Shown piece by piece: positions 2,985 to 39,266 of a stretch of 41,576 bases of DNA. The position numbers and the translations under genes are program-made. Source of the stretch: Candidatus Effluviviaceae Genus V sp. (GTDB lineage Bacteria; Joyebacterota; Joyebacteria; Joyebacterales; Joyebacteraceae); NCBI GenBank assembly GCA_014728125.1, contig WJMD01000094.1:1-41576 (forward strand), read 5' to 3'. Position 1 is the first letter of the stretch, and every line of letters starts with the position of its first letter. A model generated the notes under the pieces. It did no database searches and was not told the DNA's origin. It worked only from the letters and a program-made list of their open reading frames with translations.

Positions 2985-3590
2985 TCAGCGGAAGAGCGCC
3001 TTGATCTCACCCCAGCCGCACGGTTCAACGGGCGAGGCCACGTTGACATCGCCGGGCGAGGGTTCGATTCCTGAGATCGGCGGGTCGGCCGGGTTGAGCC
3101 CGTCGAGGACCTCCCACCAGCCGACGCCGTCCGGAATGCGGCCGATCGAGCGGTCGTCGTCGACCTGCGACCCGTCGTAGGTCACGGCGTCGACGACCGT
3201 GCCGTCGGGACGGACGAGAGCGACCGTGTCGCCGCTGTTGTTGAGCGAGAGACCGTACCTCGGGTATCCGTTCTGATCCTCCCAGTCGTAGGCCTCGTTC
3301 CCGTACACGACCGCGTAGGCCCCGGCGGCGAGCGAACCGGAGAATTCGTAGCGCCAGCTCGAGTCGGACACGGCGTCCCTGAGCCTCCAGCCCGTGATGT
3401 CGATCGGGCCGGCACCGATGTTCAGGATCTCGATCCACTCATCCTCGACCGAATGGTACTCCTCGTTCCCGTCGGACGGCGACCAGTCGACCGCCGGGTC
3501 CGGCATGAACTCATTGATCACAACCTGGGCGCAGGCCGGCGCGGCGACAGCACCCGCGAGCACGAGCACAGCAATGCGCAGCATGAACAT
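2985..3590 (-). CDS. Small secreted lamin-tail-domain protein with WGxIKA C-terminal motif
   Basis: A 201-residue exported protein. The signal peptide (MFMLRIAVLVLAGAVAAPACA, about 1-21) is followed immediately by a lamin tail domain: VVINEFMPDP, then DEWIEILNIG, DITGWRLRD, GAYAVVYGN and LNNSGDTVALV, the usual order for this beta-sandwich. The domain fills almost the whole protein, so it is close to a bare lamin-tail module. The last 17 residues, SPVEPCGWGEIKALFR with the preceding Ala, closely match the C-terminus of the unrelated beta-helix protein at 37938-39266, which suggests a shared sorting or anchoring tag (inference). Start: ATG 3588-3590 with AGGAG nine bases upstream; the next ATG at codon 3 is possible. 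Its partner upstream (3829-6696) also begins with a lamin tail domain. The ligand is unknown. Confidence 0.85.
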   Translation of the reverse strand: MFMLRIAVLVLAGAVAAPACAQVVINEFMPDPAVDWSPSDGNEEYHSVEDEWIEILNIGAGPIDITGWRLRDAVSDSSWRYEFSGSLAAGAYAVVYGNEAYDWEDQNGYPRYGLSLNNSGDTVALVRPDGTVVDAVTYDGSQVDDDRSIGRIPDGVGWWEVLDGLNPADPPISGIEPSPGDVNVASPVEPCGWGEIKALFR

Positions 3591-3828: not shown

Positions 3829-6696
3829 CTACTTCAGAAGCACCATCTTCCGGCTGACCATCTCGCCGCCGGCGGTCAGGCGATAGAAGTAGACGCCGCT
3901 CGCAACCTGCTCACCCGTGTCGCCACGGCCGTTCCAGACCGCGCGGTGGACGCCGCCCTCGAGGGTGCCGTCCACGAGCGTCGCGACCCTGCGGCCCGTG
4001 ACGTCGTAGATCGCGAGCTCAACGTCCGTCTCGCGCGGGACGCTGAACGCGATCTCTGTGATCGGGTTGAACGGGTTCGGAGCGTTCTGCGAGAGATCGA
4101 ACCTCGCGGCGGAGAGACCGTCGTCGATCCCGGCCGGATTGGCCGCGATGTCCGCGTTGTCCCTCGGCTGGATCTTGTAATCGCCGTAGCTGTACTGCAC
4201 AACGCCGATCACGTAGACGTTGTCACCGATCGTCGGGACGTAGTCGTAGCTCCCAAGATCGTCGACGCGGCAGGTGTCGGCGGGAGCGCCGTTCGTGATC
4301 GCCCACTCGCCGTAGCCGAGGTCGTCGTCCTCGACGGTGCAGTCCTCAGCGTACACGAGCACGCCCTCATACTGCTCGCCGGAGACAACGTTCTGGAGCA
4401 GACCCGTCGCGATCGAGGTGGGATCGGGGATCGTCGCGCGGGATGTCACCAGCTCGGCCGCCTCGGGGAAGTGGAGCGCGAACTCGGTCTCGCCGAAGTA
4501 CTCGTCCACCTGCCCGGACAGCAGCACCTCATCGCCACGCTCGAAGCTGAGCGAGCCGGTACGGTCGTAGACGAGGATGCCATTCCAGGCACCCGAGGCG
4601 TCCTGAACGTACCAGTTGTAGTCGCTGAACTCGCCAGGGGCGACCGTGACGACACCCTGGATGTTCGCGGCCAGCCCCTTGAGCGAGGACGTGTCCTCGC
4701 CGGCCGGCACGGTCTGGATGTCGGCGATGTCCAGGAGGCCGACGTAGAGGCTGTAGCTGCCGGCTGACGGCACGCGGCCGTCCATCTGGCCGTCGGAGAC
4801 CTCGACGTAGTAGTAGACGCGGTCGCCGCCGGAGAAGGGACCGATATCGGCCGTCCAGGTACCCTCGTAGCGCGTCACCTCGGACATCGGAACGCCCGTG
4901 AAGGGACCCGACGACGAGAGCGCGTAGTAGAGGGTGGCCGTCGTCACAGCGACGTCGTCCGCGGCGATGCACGTGACGGTGATGGTCTCGCCCGCCTCGG
5001 GCGCCACCGGCGTGTACCGCACGGTACCGACGGTGGGAGGACCGACGATGTCGTCGTCGCTCCTGGGCTCCAGCTTGTAGTCGCTGTAGCTGTACATCAG
5101 GATGCCCCTGAGCTCGGACAGCTCGTCGAGGACCTCGGGCTCGTAGTAGTAGAAGCCGTAGTCGCCGACCCACGCGTCCTCACCGGACGAGTCACGCACG
5201 CGCCACTCGCCGTACGTGTTCGGCTCGTACGTCACGGTCACGTCGTTGAACTGGCACAGCTGGCCCTCGTAGCGCTCGGCCTCGACCGAGAGCGAGTTGG
5301 CCTGCGCCGTGGTGATCTCGGTGAACCCGTACGTCGGGTTGTCGCTCGAGTGCACGACGAGCGCTTCCGCGAAGTGCAGGTAGATCTCGGTCTCGTTGTA
5401 GTACTCGGTCACCTGACCGCAGATGGTGACGTCGTCTCCCTCGAGAATGTCGCCGTCGTAGCCGGGCGCATAGCACTTGACACCCTTGAACGGACCGGTG
5501 CCTTCGTGGAGATAGAAGTTGCTGCTCCCGAAGGCGTCGTCGCCCGCGGTGACGATGCCGCGGATGTTGACGGCCTGGCCGACGAGCGGCGAGGTGTCGC
5601 CGCCGGCCCCGACGAACTGCACGTTGTAGACCGACGTGTAGCCCACCGAGTACTGGTACGGGTCGTTCTGACCCTCGGCCGGGTAGTTGATCCCCGCGCC
5701 GAAGTCGTCGACCGCACGGACGTAGTACTTGACCTGCGAACCGGCCATCTGCGCCGGGACGCTCCCCGTATAGACCGAGTCGGGCGAGCTGGCGAAGACG
5801 CGCGCCCATCCTGTGTCGTCGACGTTGTAGTACACCATGACCGAGTCGATGACGCCGTCGTCACTGATGGTCGCGCTGATCTCGGTCGGCGTGCCGCCGG
5901 TCGGCGGGATCGGCGAGTAGCGCACGTCACGGATCCACGGCGGCGTGTTCAGCACGTTGACCGCGCCCGGCGTCGGCGCCTGGAGCGTCCAGTCGTCGAT
6001 GCTCGCGTCCGAGTCGGTGCCGCTGGCGTCGCGGCCGATCGTGTTGCCGAGGAAGGGAATCTCGGGGAAGGCGTTGTCGTCGGCGCCGTCGTCGCCCGGG
6101 CAGGGGTCGGACGTGCAGATGTCCATGTCGGCGTACTCGACGAGGTCGACGAGTGTGAGGAGCGTCGCGGATGTGTAGAGGTAGACGACGTCCGCGTTCG
6201 AGTAACCGCCGCACTGGACGCCGTAGCCGTTCCCGCCGACGAGCGTGATCTCGTCCGTGTAGTACGTGGCGGGGTCGTCATCGAGCAGCGTCAGGTTGTC
6301 GACGAGAGCGCTGTCATCGTCGTACTGGAACGACGGATCGAACATCTCGAAGTCCGGATAAAAACCGAACTCCTCGAAGAAACCGTCGTCGCCGTCGGCC
6401 CCGTCCTTCGCCACGACGACGTAGCCGCCGGCCGGGATCGATGTGCCGGCGGGGAACTGCCAGCGGTCCTCGCCGCCGCAGGTCTCAGCGTACTCCGTAC
6501 CGGCCAGCACCCACCCGCTGATGTCGATCGCGGAGCCGGTCGGGTTGTGGAGCTCAATGAACTCGGCGCCGTCGTAGTTTCCCGAGGGATTGGGATAGAC
6601 CTCGTTCAGAACGACGTTGTTGCCTGAGGGATCCGCCATCGCGAGCCCCGCAAAGAGCACGAGACACGCAACGGCCACGAAAGACACGTTCCTCAT
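3829..6696 (-). CDS. Large secreted lamin-tail / OB-fold / Ig-like protein with T9SS-type C-terminal domain
   Basis: A 955-residue multidomain exported protein. After the signal peptide (to about residue 22) comes a lamin tail domain (about 25-240; VVLNEVYPNPSG, AEFIELHNPTG, DISGWVL). Then an Ig-like module (about 245-345) leads into a YhcR/ExeM-type OB-fold region (VGAGGDTSPLVGQAVNIRG, then DDVTICGQVTEYYNETEI), a second Ig-like module and a second OB region (PAGEDTSSLKGLAANIQG, then DEVLLSGQVDEYFGETEF). The end is a FlgD-like domain with NAPNPFNPITEI, YDVTGRRVATL, ASGVYFYRL and terminal KMVLLK, the pattern of T9SS type A sorting domains. OB folds of this kind accompany extracellular nucleases, but no nuclease domain is seen here. 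Start: ATG 6694-6696, nine bases after AAGGAGG; a GTG one codon earlier is possible. It has its own promoter. Binding to nucleic acid or glycan is a guess. Confidence 0.9.
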   Translation of the reverse strand: MRNVSFVAVACLVLFAGLAMADPSGNNVVLNEVYPNPSGNYDGAEFIELHNPTGSAIDISGWVLAGTEYAETCGGEDRWQFPAGTSIPAGGYVVVAKDGADGDDGFFEEFGFYPDFEMFDPSFQYDDDSALVDNLTLLDDDPATYYTDEITLVGGNGYGVQCGGYSNADVVYLYTSATLLTLVDLVEYADMDICTSDPCPGDDGADDNAFPEIPFLGNTIGRDASGTDSDASIDDWTLQAPTPGAVNVLNTPPWIRDVRYSPIPPTGGTPTEISATISDDGVIDSVMVYYNVDDTGWARVFASSPDSVYTGSVPAQMAGSQVKYYVRAVDDFGAGINYPAEGQNDPYQYSVGYTSVYNVQFVGAGGDTSPLVGQAVNIRGIVTAGDDAFGSSNFYLHEGTGPFKGVKCYAPGYDGDILEGDDVTICGQVTEYYNETEIYLHFAEALVVHSSDNPTYGFTEITTAQANSLSVEAERYEGQLCQFNDVTVTYEPNTYGEWRVRDSSGEDAWVGDYGFYYYEPEVLDELSELRGILMYSYSDYKLEPRSDDDIVGPPTVGTVRYTPVAPEAGETITVTCIAADDVAVTTATLYYALSSSGPFTGVPMSEVTRYEGTWTADIGPFSGGDRVYYYVEVSDGQMDGRVPSAGSYSLYVGLLDIADIQTVPAGEDTSSLKGLAANIQGVVTVAPGEFSDYNWYVQDASGAWNGILVYDRTGSLSFERGDEVLLSGQVDEYFGETEFALHFPEAAELVTSRATIPDPTSIATGLLQNVVSGEQYEGVLVYAEDCTVEDDDLGYGEWAITNGAPADTCRVDDLGSYDYVPTIGDNVYVIGVVQYSYGDYKIQPRDNADIAANPAGIDDGLSAARFDLSQNAPNPFNPITEIAFSVPRETDVELAIYDVTGRRVATLVDGTLEGGVHRAVWNGRGDTGEQVASGVYFYRLTAGGEMVSRKMVLLK

Positions 6697-6857
6697 CACT
6701 GTCTACCTCCTTGTGCATGCGCAGGGATCCCCGACGGGACCCGCAGTTCCAGAAGAGCCGCCCCGAAAAGCGGCTTCCCTGATCATCCAGATACCCATCC
6801 GCAGTGCGGGGATAGACCTCTCCATCGCCGCATGCGGCTCGCTTTCGGAGTCTCGCA

Positions 6858-12846: not shown

Positions 12847-13725
12847 CTAGAAAGAGACTCCCGCCCCGAAGTGATGCGAGCCGGGGAGCTCCGCGTGCGA
12901 CGTGTAGCTGTAGTCGATCCGGACCATGCGCCAGTGGGTACCGAACCCGACGGAAAGCCGGTCCGGCTGATTCTGAAGTCCGCCGCGCAGCGTCAGATAC
13001 TCCGCGATCTCGAACTCGAGTCCGAAGCACGCCCGCAGGTCCTGCGTGTCCTGCTTCTGGAACTCGAGGCTCGTCGTGACGCCTCCGTAGGGATTGTAGG
13101 CGACGCCGGCGGTGAACCAGCGGGGCAGGTCCTCGGCGTCCGGCTCACCCATCTTCGGGTTGTTGAAGTTCTTGAGGAAGAACCCGAAGCTCGTCCGCGT
13201 CCGCAGCGTGCCCATCACGCCGATGTCGAGCCCGACGGTCGTGGCATCACCAAGGTCCTCGCCCGCGAGGTCCTCGGCGCCGAACGAAAGACCGTAGAGG
13301 TTCACGGCGTAGCCGAGCGACAGCGACGAGTGCACGTCCTTCATGACGGTGAACCCGTGAGCGACGGCCAGTGTCGTCTCGCGCTCGAGGTCGACCCCGC
13401 CGTACTCGACGGCCAGAACGCGTCCGCCGACGCCGATGGTGCCGTACTTCGTCGGAACCCGCGCCGCCACCGAGCCCAGGTCCAGGAAGTCGTACCCGTA
13501 GAGATCGACGTAGCTCCCGTAGACCCCCACACCCTCCTGCTCCGCGAGCCCGGCCGGGTTCGTGAACACGGCCGTCTCATCGTCGGAGACCGCGACGAAC
13601 GCTCCGCCCATGGCGCGCGCCCGGGGCGACAGATTGAGGTTGTCGAAGACGCCCGCCGCCGATGCGACCGCCGGCGTCAGAAGGAGCGCCGCGCAGAGAA
13701 CCGCTCCTGCTGTTACCTTCCTCAC
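12847..13725 (-). CDS. PorV/PorQ-like (UPF0164) outer-membrane barrel protein
   Basis: A 292-residue exported barrel. The signal peptide is followed by LNLSPRARAMGGAFVAVSDDETAVFTNPAGLAEQ split across residues of about 28-65, which matches the first strands of PorV/PorQ and UPF0164 proteins (Ala-Met-Gly-Gly-Ala...Asn-Pro-Ala-Gly). Regular beta strands follow to a C-terminal Phe (FGAGVSF). In Bacteroidetes PorV shuttles T9SS cargo to the attachment complex, and here the gene directly follows two secreted proteins with FlgD-like C-termini. That link is suggestive but no other T9SS gene is in the window. Start: GTG (13723-13725) with AAGGAGG five bases upstream; the open frame extends to 13806 but that part has no signal-peptide features. 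FadL-like lipid transport is the alternative. Confidence 0.83.
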   Translation of the reverse strand: MRKVTAGAVLCAALLLTPAVASAAGVFDNLNLSPRARAMGGAFVAVSDDETAVFTNPAGLAEQEGVGVYGSYVDLYGYDFLDLGSVAARVPTKYGTIGVGGRVLAVEYGGVDLERETTLAVAHGFTVMKDVHSSLSLGYAVNLYGLSFGAEDLAGEDLGDATTVGLDIGVMGTLRTRTSFGFFLKNFNNPKMGEPDAEDLPRWFTAGVAYNPYGGVTTSLEFQKQDTQDLRACFGLEFEIAEYLTLRGGLQNQPDRLSVGFGTHWRMVRIDYSYTSHAELPGSHHFGAGVSF

Positions 13726-13798
13726 GATGTCCTCCTTGTCCGGTCCGTTCCGCCGGATCCCTGTCATCGAGTGTCTCTCCGGATTACGCGTTCTCATA

Positions 13799-16700
13799 TC
13801 ACTCAAGCTCCCTGCCCACGACGATCGGTATGGCCGCGTCGCCGTCCGATCCGCCCGTGGTGCTCCGGGACTGAACGTGGCAGATATAGACGCCCACGGG
13901 GACCTTCAACCCCTCGTCGTCCCGCCCGTCCCAGCTGACGCGCTGCGGGCCGAGCGAGAGTCCGTCGTAGAGCGTCGCGACGCTGCGCCCCTGCAGGTCG
14001 AAGACCTGGATCGACACGTAGCTTGAGCGCGGAGCGTTGTAGGCGATCTGGATTGACTGATCAGCGTCGATGTTCAGGATCAGCCGGTCCTCGTTCTCCG
14101 TATCGACGACCAGCGACGCCTCGGCCGAAGACGAGTAGTGGGCGTCGCGGATGATCATGTCGCTCTGATACCTCGGCGCCAGCTCGTAGCCCGAGAAGTA
14201 GGGACGCGAGAGGTCGTACTGCAGGATGACCCCCTGGACCTCGACGCTGTCGCCGAGCGCGAACTCGGAGAAGTCGAGGTCGGAGAAGTTCTGGTAGACT
14301 TGGATGGAGCCGGAGCCGTCGTCGATGAAGTAGGCGAAGCCCTCGACGCTGATGACGACGCCCGAGGTCTTCACGAAGGCGCCCTCGTAGCGCTCGTCGT
14401 TGACGTCGCCCGACGGCAGATCGACGGGCTCGATGATGTCGAAGCCGCGGGCGAGCACCGTGATGACGGCGTCGTCGATCTCGGTCGTCGCGCCGGCGCC
14501 GCTCGAAGCGCTCACGTAGTCGGTCACGCTTCCCGAGGCCTTCACGAGATCACCGAAGATCGGCGGCTGCGCCACGAGACCGTTCGAATAGAGATTGATG
14601 CCCCAATCGTCCAGGCCCTGGATATACATGTTCGTGCGGTCGGGCTGGAAGACGCCCGGGGGGACGGTCGTGAACCCGACAACGGCGACCTCCTCGGTCA
14701 CCATCTGTGAGAAGCCGTCGTCGTTCCACGCCTGCGTCTCGGCGATCGGCGTCGTGTCGTCGAAGTAGCCGCTGAAGGTCACCGAGGTGTCCGGGAGGGC
14801 GTTCCCGGCGACGTCATCGATGCCGGTCACGAACATCGTGTACTGCTCGTCCGGGACCTGCCGGCTCGTCGAGATGAGAACGGTTCGCCCGTCCCTCGAA
14901 AGCCAGGCGCTGTTGAGGTCGAGCGTCCGGTCGACATCGTAGCTTCCGAGGTCCTCGGCGTCGCCCTCGTCGACGGGCTCATTGAACACGACCAGCAAGA
15001 ACTCGCTGCCAGCCCCCTGCACGCTCTCGACCTCCGGTGCGAGGTCGTCGGTCACGACGTTGACCTCGCCGGGTGTCGGCGTGGAGGAGAGCACGAGATC
15101 GGCGCTCGAGACGTCGGTGTCGGTCGAAAGTTCGTCCCTGCCGAGCGAGTAATGTGTGGGTGGCGGCCCCGGAACCCACGCGTCCGCTGTCCCGCCGAGG
15201 CCGGCGCCGGTGCACGCATCCGTGTCCAGGAAGACCGGGTCGCGGTACTCGACGGCGTCGACCAGGTAAGCCTTCGTGCGGTCGGAGTAGAGGTAGACCG
15301 CTTCGTAGGCCGGCGTGTTCGCGACGAGCGTCCCGTTCTCGTCGTATCCACCGACGAGCCGGATCTCTCTGCTTCCCTCCTCCGTCGAGCTCGCAACGAG
15401 GGTCAGGTTGTCGACCCCGGGCCAGTCGACGTCGCCGTACTCGGCGTCGTAGAGTTCGTAGTCGGGATTGAAGCCGAAGACGGGATTGAATCCCTGCGAC
15501 GACGTCCGCTTCGTGTCTTTCGCGATGACGAGATACTCGCCGGCACCGATCTCGGCACCCGCGGGGAACTCCCAGAGGTTCGCGCCGCACTCGCCGGAGT
15601 CGTCCACGTCCGTCAGGACCCAGCCCGTCAGGTCGACCGGCGAGCCGCCCGGGTTGTAGAGCTCGACGAACTCGGCCCGGTCCCGCGAGTCGGTCGATTT
15701 CGATACGGCGTAGATCTCGTTGATGAGAACGACCCCCTCGTCGGCCGATGCTCCGACGTCCACCACGGGCGACGTCGCCAGCTCCGCCAGCGAGTCCGAG
15801 CCCGTCGAGACGACGAACATCGACTGAACGGCCGAGGCCGGGGTACCGAGTCCTGAGATGGTCACTGTTCCCGCAACCTCGCTCTCGAGCGACGCACCCG
15901 TCACGCTGACGCGCGATGCGGACGTACTGTCGGCGAGGACGCTCGCCCCCGAGAAGCCGTCGCCGGAGAGCGAGACATCGGCGACGTCGCCGCTCCAGGT
16001 CCAGCCGTCGGGGATCGCGATGTCGACGCGCGAGAGCACCGACCCCTCTCCCTCGACGTCGACATCGATCGTCACGGTCTCACTCGTGTAGACCCTGTCC
16101 GGGTTCACTGACGCGGTGCCGCTGCCGGGCCCCAGCGAGAGGATCCACGAACGCATGGCCGGCAGCACGCCGTGTCCGGGCTGCCAGTTGGAGCGCGGGT
16201 CCGGTGTCACGATGCCGTACACGTCGAACGACTCGAGTGGAGCACGCGAGCCACAGACGTCGGTGTCGTTGTCGAGCCACAGCCAGCACAGCGTGTCGTC
16301 GTCGGCGACCTGTGTCGCTCCGTCGCCGTTCTGGGGACAGGAGGGCGGCCAGCTGTAAAGGAGCGAAACATCGCGCACGACGACGTAGCTCCCCTCCCAG
16401 TCCTCTCCGTTGACATAGATGTCCTCGCAGTCGAGCTCGATCGGTTCGGGCAGCGGGTTCCCCGAGTTGAGCACCTCGATGCTCGACCCCGGCACCAGCA
16501 TCGTACTGACGAAGACGGCCGTCCGCTTCGACGCCGTCTGAACGACGACCTGCCCGGTCACCAGGACGCTGTCGCCCGCGGCCACACTCGGTGACGTCAT
16601 GCCGTCCTGGATGACGTTCACACCGCCCGTCGTGTCCTGAATGTAGATGTCGTTCGTGCTGTCGAGAAGTCCTGTGCCGACCGTGACGACGCCGCGGACC

Positions 16701-16837
16701 GTGACAACCTCATCCCACAGAATCGGGAAGCCGTCCACGTCGTCGGCATTGACGTCGGAGATGGGTATCACGTCCGCGTGCAGCGTCGCCGCGAGGAGGA
16801 CGACCAGGACTCCGGCGAGAAATGCTCCTCTACTCAT
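13799..16837 (-). CDS. Large secreted OB-fold / lamin-tail / SbsA-Ig protein with FlgD-like C-terminus
   Basis: A 1012-residue exported protein. The signal peptide (to about 21) is followed by an OB-fold region (about 25-230; VTVRGVVTVGTG, GDSVLVTGQVVV), an Ig/cohesin-like stretch (about 240-365; GTASVNPDRVYTSETVTIDV), a lamin tail domain (about 370-550; VLINEIYAVSKS, AEFVELYNPGG, DLTGWVLTDVD), an SbsA-type Ig domain (about 560-665; FLLVVFNEPVDEGD), a second OB region (about 685-885) and a FlgD-like domain (QVFDLQGRSVATLYDG, VPVGVYICHVQS). It does not end in the usual KMVLLK but in IPIVVGRELE, similar to the neighbour's MPVVVGVKLDG. The second OB region plus C-terminus is clearly homologous to the whole mature neighbour at 16867-17958. 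Start: ATG 16835-16837 with AAGGAAG. The ligand is unknown; no catalytic domain is seen. Confidence 0.88.
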   Translation of the reverse strand: MSRGAFLAGVLVVLLAATLHADVIPISDVNADDVDGFPILWDEVVTVRGVVTVGTGLLDSTNDIYIQDTTGGVNVIQDGMTSPSVAAGDSVLVTGQVVVQTASKRTAVFVSTMLVPGSSIEVLNSGNPLPEPIELDCEDIYVNGEDWEGSYVVVRDVSLLYSWPPSCPQNGDGATQVADDDTLCWLWLDNDTDVCGSRAPLESFDVYGIVTPDPRSNWQPGHGVLPAMRSWILSLGPGSGTASVNPDRVYTSETVTIDVDVEGEGSVLSRVDIAIPDGWTWSGDVADVSLSGDGFSGASVLADSTSASRVSVTGASLESEVAGTVTISGLGTPASAVQSMFVVSTGSDSLAELATSPVVDVGASADEGVVLINEIYAVSKSTDSRDRAEFVELYNPGGSPVDLTGWVLTDVDDSGECGANLWEFPAGAEIGAGEYLVIAKDTKRTSSQGFNPVFGFNPDYELYDAEYGDVDWPGVDNLTLVASSTEEGSREIRLVGGYDENGTLVANTPAYEAVYLYSDRTKAYLVDAVEYRDPVFLDTDACTGAGLGGTADAWVPGPPPTHYSLGRDELSTDTDVSSADLVLSSTPTPGEVNVVTDDLAPEVESVQGAGSEFLLVVFNEPVDEGDAEDLGSYDVDRTLDLNSAWLSRDGRTVLISTSRQVPDEQYTMFVTGIDDVAGNALPDTSVTFSGYFDDTTPIAETQAWNDDGFSQMVTEEVAVVGFTTVPPGVFQPDRTNMYIQGLDDWGINLYSNGLVAQPPIFGDLVKASGSVTDYVSASSGAGATTEIDDAVITVLARGFDIIEPVDLPSGDVNDERYEGAFVKTSGVVISVEGFAYFIDDGSGSIQVYQNFSDLDFSEFALGDSVEVQGVILQYDLSRPYFSGYELAPRYQSDMIIRDAHYSSSAEASLVVDTENEDRLILNIDADQSIQIAYNAPRSSYVSIQVFDLQGRSVATLYDGLSLGPQRVSWDGRDDEGLKVPVGVYICHVQSRSTTGGSDGDAAIPIVVGRELE

Positions 16838-16866
16838 GGGTCTTCCTTTCGACGGTTCTCCTGGTG

Positions 16867-17958
16867 CTATCCGTCCAGCTTGACACCGACGACAACGGGC
16901 ATCGTCGCAACGCTGGTGTCGCCGTCCCTGTCGGTGGCTTCGAGTCTCACGATGTAGGTCCCGGCGGGAACGAGCCGCTTGAGTTCGTCGCGGCCGTCCC
17001 ACCCCTGGATGCCGGTCACGTAGAAGTCGTCCTTGTAGTACCCGGGGAGGTCCGAGTGACCGGTGTACTCCCCGTCCGTCAGCGTCCGCACACGACGGCC
17101 CTGGAGATCATAGACCTCGATGGTGACCGTGCTCTCCTCGGGCGCTGCGTATTCGATCGGCATGACGTAGCCGAGCTCGGGGACGAACGGCTTTGCCGGC
17201 GCCCTCAGCGTTGCGTTCGGCCAGTACTCGGGGTCTCCCGGCTCGGGCGCGTCGGCGTACCTGAGGTCGCGCTGGAACCGCGGCACGAGCTCCCAGCCGT
17301 CGAAGTACGGCTGGTCCCGGTCGTACTGCAGCGTGATCCCCGTCACGTCCAGCGTATCCCCGATGTCGAAGCCCGAGAAGTCGGTCGAGTCGTTGTTCGA
17401 CTGGTAGACCTGGATCTCGGCACCCGACCAAGGCTGCCAGATGTACATCTGCCAGTCGTAGTTGGTCTCCCTGACGACGCCGATGGTCCGGATGAGACGG
17501 CCCTCGTACTCCTCCTGCCCGGCCTCCTGCAGGTTGAAATAGCTCGGCTCCGGCTCGGGGTTTCCCGACGAAATGAGCGTGATGTCACTCGGGTTGTCGC
17601 AGAAGATCTGTGTCGTGGCGCCGGCTCCCGTCGACGTGCTCACGTACTCGTTGACCTCGCCGCTGATCTGGATGGTGTCCCCGAGCGCCAGGTCGAACGG
17701 TAGAGGGTCGAAACAGAAGACAGCCACTCCGCAGCCGTCGTTCTCGATGTACATCGACGTGTACATGGGCTGGATGTAGCCCGGAGGAAGCGTGACGGCG
17801 CCCCTCACCGTCACGTTCTGACCCTGCAGCGGCGAGAACCCGTTCTCGTCGTACTCCTGAACGTCGCAGATCGTGACGGCCCGGGCCGGGGCCGCGAGGG
17901 CCGCTCCCGTCAGCAGGACGGCCATCGCCGCCAGTGCGACCGTTGCGCTTCTCGTCAT
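16867..17958 (-). CDS. Secreted OB-fold protein with FlgD-like C-terminus, short paralogue of neighbour
   Basis: A 363-residue exported protein: signal peptide to about 27, a YhcR/ExeM-like OB-fold region (about 30-225; VTVRGAVTLPPGY, GDTIQISGEVNEYVSTSTG) and a FlgD-like Ig domain (about 262-363; YDLQGRRVRTL, VPAGTYIVRLEATD). It aligns with the C-terminal third of the next gene: GAGATTQI versus GAGATTEI, and ITLQYDRDQPYFDGWELVPR versus VILQYDLSRPYFSGYELAPR. One of the two therefore arose by segmental duplication. The C-terminus ATMPVVVGVKLDG lacks the basic KMVLLK tail. Start: ATG 17956-17958 after GGGAG. It sits between the sugar-binding lipoprotein of a CUT1 transporter and its larger paralogue; a surface role in binding polymer before uptake is a reasonable guess only. 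Confidence 0.86.
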   Translation of the reverse strand: MTRSATVALAAMAVLLTGAALAAPARAVTICDVQEYDENGFSPLQGQNVTVRGAVTLPPGYIQPMYTSMYIENDGCGVAVFCFDPLPFDLALGDTIQISGEVNEYVSTSTGAGATTQIFCDNPSDITLISSGNPEPEPSYFNLQEAGQEEYEGRLIRTIGVVRETNYDWQMYIWQPWSGAEIQVYQSNNDSTDFSGFDIGDTLDVTGITLQYDRDQPYFDGWELVPRFQRDLRYADAPEPGDPEYWPNATLRAPAKPFVPELGYVMPIEYAAPEESTVTIEVYDLQGRRVRTLTDGEYTGHSDLPGYYKDDFYVTGIQGWDGRDELKRLVPAGTYIVRLEATDRDGDTSVATMPVVVGVKLDG

Positions 17959-35247: not shown

Positions 35248-36255
35248 TCAGACGCCGCCGTCCGTATCACCCGACTCCGTACGCTTCTTCAGGACGTCCC
35301 TGACGGCCTGCGCGATGTCCCGCGCCTTGAGACCGAAATGAGCGAGCAGCTGTTCGTGCTCGCCCGAGACGCCGAACCTGTCTCCTACTCCGATGATCCT
35401 GATGGGGGTCGGTCGCTCCGTGTGTGTCAGGGCCTCCGCAACGGCGCCGCCGAGGCCGCCGATGATGGAGCCCTCCTCGACCGTCACGATGGCCGACGTC
35501 TCCGCCGCCGCCCGCCCGACGATGGCCCTGTCGAGCGGCTTGATCGTGTGGCAGTTGATGACGCGCACCGAGATTCCCGTGTCCTCGAGCGTCCTTGCCG
35601 CCTTCATCGCCTCGTAGACCATGACGCCGCAGGCGATCACGGTCACGTCCTGACCCTGGCGATACACGCTGCCCTGTCCGACGATGAACGGCGTGAGGTC
35701 GGTCGTCACGACGGGCACGCGCGTGGCCGCCATGCGCATGTAGACTGGACCGGGGATCCGGGCGGCCGCCACGGTAGCCCGCGCCGCCTGCACCGAATCG
35801 GCGGGCACGACGACCGTCATCCCGGGGAGCGTTCGCATGACGGCGACGTCCTCGAGCGACTGCCGGGAACCTCCCGCGGCCCCGGCCGACAGGCCGGCGT
35901 CGGCGCCGCAGATATTGACGTTGAGCGACCCGTAGCAGATCGTCGAGCGGATGATGTCCCACGCCTTGCCGGCCGCGAGCATTCCGTGCGTCGTGACGAA
36001 CACACACTTGCCGGCCAGCGCGAGCCCGGCCGCCGTACCGATCATGTCCTGTTCACAGAGTCCGATGTCCATGAACCGATCGGGGAACCGCTTCCGGAAC
36101 TCGGCCGTCCCGCTGGAGCCGGCCAGGTCCGCGTCCATCACGATGATGTCGTCACCGCGCTCGGCGAGCTCGATCAGCCCGCGCTCGTAGCCGCTGTTCG
36201 TGGCCTCGGTCTCGATCACGCTGTGCGCGATGTCGACGAGTCCCGTCTCCACCAT
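35248..36255 (-). CDS. Transketolase-like C-terminal subunit with altered active-site residues
   Basis: A 335-residue pyrimidine-binding plus C-terminal half of a split thiamine-diphosphate transketolase. The cofactor-activating Glu is present (GLCEQDM, Glu68). Other family parts: DADLAGSSGTAEFRKRFPDRF, GTAAGLALAGK, LPGMTVVVPADSVQAA and TVEEGSIIGGLGGAVAE. Two regions differ from ordinary members: the aromatic stretch STFAVFATGRAW reads TTHGMLAAGKAW (Phe to His90), and the GEDGATHQ loop reads GAAGGSRQ, with Arg131 in place of the substrate-binding His. Start: ATG 36253-36255, GGAGG nearby. It lies 70 bases after the N-subunit gene. The enzyme may use a different substrate from sugar phosphates (inference). 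Pyruvate dehydrogenase E1-beta or DXS are less similar. Confidence 0.9.
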   Translation of the reverse strand: MVETGLVDIAHSVIETEATNSGYERGLIELAERGDDIIVMDADLAGSSGTAEFRKRFPDRFMDIGLCEQDMIGTAAGLALAGKCVFVTTHGMLAAGKAWDIIRSTICYGSLNVNICGADAGLSAGAAGGSRQSLEDVAVMRTLPGMTVVVPADSVQAARATVAAARIPGPVYMRMAATRVPVVTTDLTPFIVGQGSVYRQGQDVTVIACGVMVYEAMKAARTLEDTGISVRVINCHTIKPLDRAIVGRAAAETSAIVTVEEGSIIGGLGGAVAEALTHTERPTPIRIIGVGDRFGVSGEHEQLLAHFGLKARDIAQAVRDVLKKRTESGDTDGGV

Positions 36256-36325
36256 TCAGGAATCCTCCGACGCCGCCGGCCGGCGGCGTTCGTGCGTCTC
36301 ATCCGGACGGCGTCCGGTCGGCTCG

Positions 36326-37141
36326 TCAGGCCAGGGCCTTCATCGCCTCTTCGTACATCTCCTCGGTGAGAGGACGATCGTGCCACTCCGCCCGTCCCTC
36401 CATGAACGGCACGCCCTTTCCCTTGACGGTCCGGGCAAGGACGACCGTCGGCCGGCCCTTGACCGACGCCGCCTCGGAGAGGGCGCCCGACAGCCGCTCG
36501 GCATCGTGACCGTCGAGGTCGATGACGTGCCAGTTGAAGGTCCGCCACTTGTCCGACAGCGGAGCGAGGGCGACGATGTTCTCCGTGTTTCCGTCACCCA
36601 TCATCTTGTTGCGATCGATGATGACGCAGACGTTGTCGAGTTTGTGGTGCGCGGCCGTCATCGCGGCCTCCCACACCTGTCCCTCGTGCGCCTCGCCGTC
36701 ACCCATGAGGCAGTAGACGCGATGTTCCTTCCTGTCGCGCTTCGCGGCGATGGCGCACCCGTTCGCGATCGAGAGTCCCTGTCCGGGCGAGCCCACCGAG
36801 GCGTCGATGCCCGGCGTCGTCTGCATGTCAGGGAATCCCTGCAGGATTGACTTCAGCTTGCGGAACGTCATCAGCTCCTTGACGTCGAAGAACCCTCGAC
36901 GCGCCAGGACGGAGTAGAGCGCCGGCGCGGCGTGCGCCTTGGACAGGATGAAGCGATCGCGATCGTCCCAAGCTGGGTCCTCCGGCTTGACACGCATGGC
37001 GTCCCAGTAGAGCACGACGAGCGCGTCCACGGCAGACAGCGACCCTCCGACGTGCCCGGAGCCCGCCTCGAGGATCATCGTGAGGACGTCGCGCCTGACG
37101 ACCTTCGCTATCTCCGCCAGTTCGATCGGCGTCGGAGACAT
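36326..37141 (-). CDS. Transketolase-like N-terminal (thiamine diphosphate-binding) subunit
   Basis: A 271-residue partner that binds the diphosphate part of the cofactor. Motifs: GSGHVGGSLS (27-36, His30), RDRFILSKAHAAPALY (61-76, His70; the usual SKGH is SKAH), GDGEAHEGQVWEA (148-159) with Mg-binding Asp148 and Asn178 in DRNKM, and KGKGVPFME with EWHDRPL. The segment normally reading QGHPD reads QGFPD (101-105), so the His that contacts the donor substrate in transketolase is Phe103; GSLGQG is also GSPGQG. Start: ATG 37139-37141, preceded by GGAG overlapping the stop of the DUF296 gene three bases upstream, so the two are coupled. Together with 35248-36255 it makes a complete enzyme with a divergent substrate pocket. 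Confidence 0.9.
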   Translation of the reverse strand: MSPTPIELAEIAKVVRRDVLTMILEAGSGHVGGSLSAVDALVVLYWDAMRVKPEDPAWDDRDRFILSKAHAAPALYSVLARRGFFDVKELMTFRKLKSILQGFPDMQTTPGIDASVGSPGQGLSIANGCAIAAKRDRKEHRVYCLMGDGEAHEGQVWEAAMTAAHHKLDNVCVIIDRNKMMGDGNTENIVALAPLSDKWRTFNWHVIDLDGHDAERLSGALSEAASVKGRPTVVLARTVKGKGVPFMEGRAEWHDRPLTEEMYEEAMKALA

Positions 37142-37937: not shown

Positions 37938-39266
37938 ATGAAGTGCTGCCACAGAGCGGTGATCATCCTCGCCCTGATTCCCGCCGTCGCCGCAGCCACG
38001 ACGCACACGGTCGACGACTCCGGCACCCAGACCTACGTGACGATCGGAGAGGCCTTCGCGGCCGCCTCTTCGGGCGACACCATTCTCGTCTCCCCCGGCA
38101 CCTACACGGGCCCCGGCAACCGCCGGATCGACTTCGTGGGCAGGGACCTCGTGCTCAAGTCGACATCGGGCGCGGGCGTCACGGTGATCGACTGCGAGGG
38201 ACAAGGGCCGGCACTCGTTCTCGAGCGAGGCGAGTCGGACCACTGCGCCGTCGAGGGCTTCACGTTCCAGAACGGCAGCGGCTATGAGTTCGGCGATACG
38301 GGGCTCGGCCTCGAAGGCGGCGCGATCTACCTGTGGGGCGCCGACCCGCTCATCATCGACTGTGAGTTCGTGTCGAACGAGGCCGATTACGGCGGCGCCA
38401 TCTTCTCGGGACCGTACTCGTCCCCGAAGATCTACTACTGCAACTTCGCCGACAACCATGCGAACGACTACGGCGGCGCCGTGTACACATATCAGGCCTC
38501 TCCTGAGTTCCGCACCTGCGAGTTCACCGACAACACGGCCAACCTCAACGGCGGGGCAATCTCGTCGAAGACCGAATCGGCTATCGTCGTGTCGAGCTGC
38601 GACTTCACCGGGAACGTGGCCAGTGAGGGCGGCGCCGTCTTCGCGGGCTCGACGCCTCCCGAAGAGGAGATACGCTTTCCCACGACGGCCTCCATCGTCA
38701 AGAACTCCCACTTCTATGAAAACGAGGCCAACCTGGGGGGCGCGCTCTTCATCAGCGGCTTCTCCGCCACGGTCGTCAACTTCTGCACAATCGCCGAGAA
38801 CACGGCCGACCGGGGAGGAGGACTGTACGCCGTCACGAAATCCGAGCGGACGCCGGTCATCGAGAACTGCACGTTCGCGCTGAACTCCGCCCGGTACGGC
38901 GCCGGCATCTACTCGAAGGCCGACGTGACCTACGAGTTCATGTCCGTCAAGAACACCCTGCTCGCGTTCAACACCGGCGGAGGCGGCGCCATCCACCGCG
39001 AGGACTACTCGGCGCTCGAGACCACGCGCTGCGTGGCGTACGGCAACGAGGGCGGAGACGACCTCTGGGGCGAGGACGTCCTGGTCGACGACCCGCTCTT
39101 CTGCGACATGGGATCCAGGAACTTCCGACTCTGCTCGAACTCGGTCTGCATCAAGTCGAACAACCCGTGGGACTTCCTCATCGGGTCGGGCTACGAGGGG
39201 TGCGACGCGTGCACCTCGCCGGTTCAGGATGTGTCGTGGGGATCGATCAAGGCGATCTACCGGTGA
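37938..39266 (+). CDS. Secreted right-handed beta-helix protein with Pmp-like repeats and WGxIKA tag
   Basis: A 442-residue exported protein, the only plus-strand gene. The signal peptide ends near residue 20. The start of the helix, YVTIGEAFAAASSGDTILVSPGTYTG spread over 33-58, is the usual N-cap of parallel beta-helices. Seven or eight coils follow with paired motifs GGAI/GGAV/GGAL and FxxN (FVSN, FADN, FTDN, FTGN, FYEN, FALN), as in chlamydial polymorphic membrane proteins. Most coils carry one Cys at the same place (DCEF, YCNF, TCEF, SCDF, FCTI, NCTF), which would stack as a ladder. There is no autotransporter barrel or membrane anchor; the end is SPVQDVSWGSIKAIYR, nearly the same as in the lamin-tail protein at 2985-3590. 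Start: ATG with GGAGG eight bases upstream. Ligand or adhesion role unknown. Confidence 0.88.
   Translation: MKCCHRAVIILALIPAVAAATTHTVDDSGTQTYVTIGEAFAAASSGDTILVSPGTYTGPGNRRIDFVGRDLVLKSTSGAGVTVIDCEGQGPALVLERGESDHCAVEGFTFQNGSGYEFGDTGLGLEGGAIYLWGADPLIIDCEFVSNEADYGGAIFSGPYSSPKIYYCNFADNHANDYGGAVYTYQASPEFRTCEFTDNTANLNGGAISSKTESAIVVSSCDFTGNVASEGGAVFAGSTPPEEEIRFPTTASIVKNSHFYENEANLGGALFISGFSATVVNFCTIAENTADRGGGLYAVTKSERTPVIENCTFALNSARYGAGIYSKADVTYEFMSVKNTLLAFNTGGGGAIHREDYSALETTRCVAYGNEGGDDLWGEDVLVDDPLFCDMGSRNFRLCSNSVCIKSNNPWDFLIGSGYEGCDACTSPVQDVSWGSIKAIYR

Follow-up and report, generated by a model that had tools for sequence, protein, structure and literature searches.

A short C-terminal tag as a candidate sorting signal on exported proteins of Candidatus Effluviviacota and other FCB-group bacteria

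Can a few residues at the very end of otherwise unrelated secreted proteins act as a sorting signal? The question was raised by a 41,576-nucleotide stretch of a Candidatus Effluviviaceae genome (contig WJMD01000094.1, hereafter the window), in which two secreted proteins finish alike. One, a right-handed beta-helix protein of 442 aa (37938..39266, + strand), begins with the signal peptide MKCCHRAVIILALIPAVAAA and ends in the tag SPVQDVSWGSIKAIYR (39216..39263, + strand, stop codon 39264-39266). The other, a lamin-tail-domain protein of 201 aa counted from the ATG at 3590 (2985..3590, - strand), begins with the signal peptide MFMLRIAVLVLAGAVAAPACA and ends in the tag SPVEPCGWGEIKALFR (2988..3035, - strand, stop codon 2985-2987). 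Both signal peptides were called Sec-type by a simple hydropathy rule. Translation of the two ends confirmed the common tag reported in the first-pass annotation, and its gap-free alignment was real, covering 16 residues instead of the 17 claimed; the common end reads SPV-x4-WGxIKA[LI][FY]R-stop. That the two folds are unrelated was borne out by Pfam, which assigned the bodies to PF13229 (beta-helix, E 7e-15) and PF00932 (lamin-tail, E 2e-21), respectively. The same annotation knew of no named family for the tag and described both proteins as lacking a membrane anchor, LPXTG, PEP-CTERM and a FlgD-like domain of the type IX secretion system (T9SS). No NCBIfam or Pfam model covered either end, neither a preceding transmembrane segment nor a match to a model for a T9SS C-terminal domain (CTD) was found, and sequence and fold searches of the PDB gave no match to the tag, the fold matches being mostly to ordinary fibronectin-III (Fn3)/Ig-like domains.

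We evaluated the recurrence of the tag in the genome of the window, using 22 other stretches together with the window itself, and by pattern search. At the DNA level, W-G-x-I-K-x-x-[FY]-R-stop occurred at 24 places in 2.52 Mb and the reversed pattern at none, a recurrence far beyond chance. A laxer rule applied to the window and the 22 other stretches added WGAVKALYR, WSAIKSLYR, WGALKTRFR and similar ends, indicating that the true number of tags in this genome is higher than 24. When these stretches were pooled with 80 loci from a scan of public genomes, the motif lay at the exact C-terminus in 124 of 129 cases, within three residues of the end in 5 of 129, and was never internal. Signal-peptide-like starts were found on all 12 tag ORFs versus 64 of 191 others (p 4e-6, non-overlapping ORFs, with ORF calling being crude), and lipobox-like sequences were rare among tag proteins (3/98).

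The core of the tag is W-G-x-I-K-[AS]-[LM]-[FY]-R at a free C-terminus, and the residues before it are usually [ST]-P-V-E-x-x-[ST]. At positions that the search pattern left free, Pro at -15, Val at -14 and Glu at -13 are also common; the pattern used in the public scan accounts in part for the preferences for Ser/Thr at -10 and Ala/Ser at -4. All six Arg codons are in use for the last residue, which indicates that selection acts on the protein level. A 15-residue stretch with a mean hydropathy of at least 1.6 was present within the last 45 residues of only 3 out of 112 tag tails, and this argues against anchors of the LPXTG or PEP-CTERM kind.

The tag was not restricted to the genome of the window. 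Every one of the 20 genomes from its phylum, Ca. Effluviviacota, had it, at 12-58 copies each (reversed control, 0), as did 40 of 44 genomes from an Eisenbacteria-type phylum, at 1-14 copies each. Among Bacteroidota, the pattern was found in 68 of 297 genomes, as a single match in all but one; two of these 68 sequences, in G115 and G262, look like chance occurrences. In Zixibacteria, the bearer that we observed was another small secreted protein, not of the Fn3 type (L050:6841-7278 and L111:1518-1931), and the tag was single in the loci seen. The first-pass annotation had proposed a motif scan of this kind, and the enrichment that it asked about was borne out. Genomes of many related phyla have numerous copies of the tag, strictly C-terminal and carried by proteins with signal peptides and unrelated folds.

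The bodies that carry the tag (23 bearers from the genome of the window and 49 from other genomes) comprised beta-helix, lamin-tail and FG-GAP domains, NHL and other propellers, InhA-like MAM proteins, starch-binding domains and choice-of-anchor J domains. Some of these domains are also familiar from proteins with PEP-CTERM, rhombosortase or myxosortase tails. In Bacteroidota, the bearer was an orthologous protein of ~130 aa in all 20 neighbourhoods read, made of a signal peptide, an Fn3-like domain and the tag, and ending in [KR][RK]TWG[SM]IK[AE]MFR or close variants. Its body was 17-60% identical to the first sequence and its tail was nearly invariant. One Bacteroidota genome set (L171-L178) carried the variant end WGMIKEMFR on the orthologous protein, and L190 carried WGMIKELFR. 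We recognized no protease, sortase or shuttle among the conserved neighbours of this single-copy gene; Maf and other housekeeping genes were all that recurred, and they did so in some of the neighbourhoods.

Structure prediction with AF2 gave the Fn3 protein an Fn3-like fold followed by a helix at residues 119-130, which covers the tag (31 sequences, pLDDT 88). For a MAM protein, the tail was predicted as a short, low-confidence helix that follows a linker and lies outside the body (22 sequences, pLDDT 70). A possibility was that the tag forms an amphipathic helix. The helical moment was ordinary, being reached by 20.6% of shuffled tags, and thus we make no such claim.

The window itself suggested what the tag might stand in for. 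Beside the tagged lamin-tail gene lies another one (3829..6699, - strand), which encodes a secreted protein of 956 aa without the tag but with a classical T9SS type A CTD (TIGR04183, 37.4 bits for a cut-off of 23). The lamin-tail regions of the two neighbours (2985..3590 and 3829..6699) align with an E value of 7e-8. A second lamin-tail protein (13799..17002, - strand) ends in a FlgD-Ig/T9SS-like C-terminal domain (PF13860, 27.2 bits versus a cut-off of 27.0). The gene after it encodes an outer-membrane protein of the PorV/PorQ family, a relative of T9SS shuttles (12847..13806, - strand; NF033709, 80 bits, below the cut-off of 90), and this arrangement (12847-17002, - strand) recalls the substrate-shuttle pairs of type B T9SS. 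Elsewhere in the window (35248-37141, - strand), transketolase is split over two adjoining ORFs, one for the C-terminal and one for the N-terminal half.

Two other bodies showed the same alternation. In the MAM-type family, whose relatives are about 40-85% identical, a search of 20 genomes yielded 36 proteins with the tag, 4 longer proteins with a T9SS CTD and 26 with neither, and the family tree requires at least four changes of tail state. For the Bacteroidota Fn3 protein, a profile of the body without the tag matched Fn3 domains that stand directly before T9SS CTDs (E 3e-17 and 1e-14), and there were further, weaker matches of this sort. In the genome of the window, none of the 83 matches to TIGR04183 fell on the 23 tag proteins scanned. 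By these sequence comparisons, the tag occupies the slot of the T9SS CTD, with lamin-tail, MAM-type and Fn3 bodies showing the swap. A MAM-type subfamily without the tag (L225, L226, L227, L235 and L239) had another recurrent end, SPY[RAGS][KR][FL]-stop, which is possibly a further tail class or just a reflection of orthology.

Next to this exchange, the tag was found in the company of T9SS genes. SprA was detected in 58 of the 59 tag-bearing genomes of many phyla, with 54 matches exceeding the cut-off, and 14 control genomes had none. Among Bacteroidota, 229 of 297 genomes had SprA; all 68 pattern-positive genomes were among these, and the pattern occurred in 0 of the 68 SprA-negative ones. 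The comparison of pattern-positive with pattern-negative Bacteroidota (SprA in 68/68 versus 161/229) gave a Fisher p of 2e-9, with kinship ignored. The tag is therefore nested within T9SS genomes. Yet most SprA-positive Bacteroidota (161/229) are without the tag, so that co-occurrence does not show that T9SS reads it. Nor is the SprA test informative in the Eisenbacteria-type phylum, since nearly all genomes there have SprA.

Other parts of the apparatus were present too. In the genome of the window, PorU is directly followed by PorV (G000:C149:8423-12604), and about 15 PorV-family matches were counted in 2.5 Mb, which together with the 83 type A CTDs makes it a very T9SS-rich genome. A term search of the paper describing the Effluviviacota phylum returned no mention of T9SS or sorting. 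PorU and PorV were found in four tag genomes with a weak or missing SprA match, PorU being partial (88 bits) in G028. In two genomes of the Eisenbacteria type, G368 and G028, the tags were not accompanied by a convincing SprA; fragmentary assemblies are perhaps the reason. We also considered a PorV-family paralogue restricted to tag genomes, and a tree of 78 proteins, drawn from eight T9SS genomes with the tag and six without it, contained no such clade. The first-pass annotation had suggested looking for a co-occurring protease or transpeptidase family. The machine found to co-occur is T9SS, with SprA, PorU and PorV; it lacks specificity for the tag, and we recognized no protease or transpeptidase dedicated to the latter.

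To our knowledge, every T9SS signal described so far is a folded domain of larger size. The closest parallel to the tag is the type A CTD (TIGR04183/PF18962), which is likewise C-terminal, sits on unrelated Sec-exported bodies, occurs in dozens per genome, shares the same slot and bodies and has a basic residue near the C-terminus. As expected of a type A CTD, the tag occurs in genomes with SprA, PorU and PorV, G028 and G368 being exceptions without a clear SprA. The difference is one of size and fold. The type A CTD is a folded beta domain of 40-80 aa with conserved motifs, either a beta-sandwich or a sheet of at least three strands, whereas the tag spans 9-16 aa and is predicted by AF2 to be a short C-terminal helix (of low confidence in the MAM protein). 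Short type A CTDs have 40-51 aa and three strands (PMC11969387). As these are the shortest described T9SS signals that we found, a helix of nine residues would be a marked departure. The models for type A and type B CTDs (TIGR04131/CHU_C for the latter) were absent from the 18 NCBIfam and 14 Pfam families matched by the 23 tag proteins of the window's genome.

There is precedent for T9SS reading several signal families, as type A is handled via PorV and type B via dedicated PorP/SprF-like shuttles (PMC12618676). Type B and type C CTDs, however, show their conserved motifs along roughly the last 100 residues (PMC10202324), unlike the tag. Similarities with PEP-CTERM, GlyGly-CTERM and LPXTG are also evident: all are short C-terminal homologies on otherwise unrelated exported proteins, and their bearers overlap with tag bodies (NHL, M36/M6-like and choice-of-anchor J). 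In those systems, a motif is followed by a transmembrane helix and a basic tail, whereas in the tag the motif is the very end, with at most three residues beyond. The BAM signal, for its part, is a last barrel strand that ends in an aromatic residue; tag bodies are beta-helices, LTD, Fn3 domains and propellers rather than barrels, and their end is an aromatic residue plus Arg. Short C-terminal sorting signals are already known, and the tag differs from all those compared in that it lacks both a membrane helix and a folded domain. We found no paper on this motif or on such a tag among the open-licence literature.

What, then, is the tag for? The reading that we favour, to which we give about an even chance, is that it serves Sec-exported proteins of the FCB group as a short C-terminal signal for sorting or export, replacing the folded T9SS CTD. 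Several steps of a T9SS-linked signal can be read from the sequences, namely the Sec signal, the modular C-terminal tag, the exchange with CTDs and the near-confinement to genomes with SprA, PorU and PorV. An N-terminal Sec-type signal would take the protein across the inner membrane, after which the tail, exposed and probably helical, may be read in the periplasm by T9SS, through the SprA translocon and a PorV-type carrier or through another adaptor, and the apparatus would move the tagged protein to the cell surface or the medium. Alternatively, the same slot might give tag proteins a fate unlike that of CTD proteins, for instance attachment to the surface or retention. The CTD of known T9SS cargo binds inside the pore of SprA and to loops of PorV, and a Lys close to its C-terminus, conserved almost without exception, forms a bond with PorV (PMC10994853); by analogy, the invariant Lys and the terminal Arg of the tag could be the counterpart of this Lys. 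The single copy in Bacteroidota bearers and the 26 MAM-type relatives with neither tail count against a reading by T9SS. Moreover, since both the tag and T9SS go far back in the FCB group, their co-occurrence may reflect shared descent.

The last point opens the way to the most serious competitor, in which the tag is a sorting or processing signal read by another FCB envelope machine (a periplasmic or outer-membrane receptor, a protease or a transpeptidase) independently of T9SS, the link with T9SS being one of ancestry. Such a machine would account for the absence of the tag from most T9SS genomes, for the PorV-family tree having yielded no tag-specific T9SS part and for the two Eisenbacteria-type tag genomes without a clear SprA. 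It would also fit the fact that tag genomes have dozens of normal T9SS CTDs as well (83 in the genome of the window), whose abundance implies that the tag adds something that CTDs do not. We nevertheless consider it unlikely, if worth keeping in mind, because the tag stands in for CTDs on bodies of the same families and occurs in none of the 68 SprA-negative Bacteroidota genomes.

Much less probable to us is a docking peptide, whereby proteins exit by some route and their C-terminal helix plugs, dockerin-like, into a scaffold on the surface or into an outer-membrane protein. A peptide that binds a groove could well have invariant W, G, I, K and R after a variable linker, and a helix is what AF2 predicted; the repertoire of 1 to 58 copies per genome is also compatible. 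But we found no scaffold candidate, docking would not need a strictly free C-terminus, and a helical moment matched by one shuffled tag in five does not help. The least probable account, to which we attach very little weight, does away with sorting altogether: the end would serve stability, folding or protection against C-terminal proteolysis, or be the relic of an ancestral domain. Nothing in the sequences by themselves contradicts it. It sits poorly, however, with bearers that are overwhelmingly exported and have unrelated bodies, and with a tail that has been gained, lost and exchanged with T9SS CTDs. Returning to a sorting signal, the proposal made in the first-pass annotation is partly supported, by the enrichment on exported proteins and by the CTD slot; at the level of sequence pattern, a probable sorting role is well supported.

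In the boldest reading, whose chance we put slightly below even, a linear C-terminal peptide of nine residues, and not a folded domain, would represent a new class of secretion signal for T9SS or for a new sister pathway. In the Effluviviacota and in the Eisenbacteria-type and Krumholzibacteria-type phyla it would route dozens of proteins; in many Bacteroidota its cargo would be a single conserved Fn3 protein. In any case, hundreds of unannotated proteins of largely uncultured FCB phyla become recognizable by their last nine residues, which gives a handle on the secretomes of these organisms. The question is directly testable, since Hymenobacter and Adhaeribacter are cultured and have the tag in single copy. 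Should T9SS turn out to read it, the rule that T9SS cargo carries a folded CTD would need widening, and an export tag of nine residues would be useful in biotechnology.
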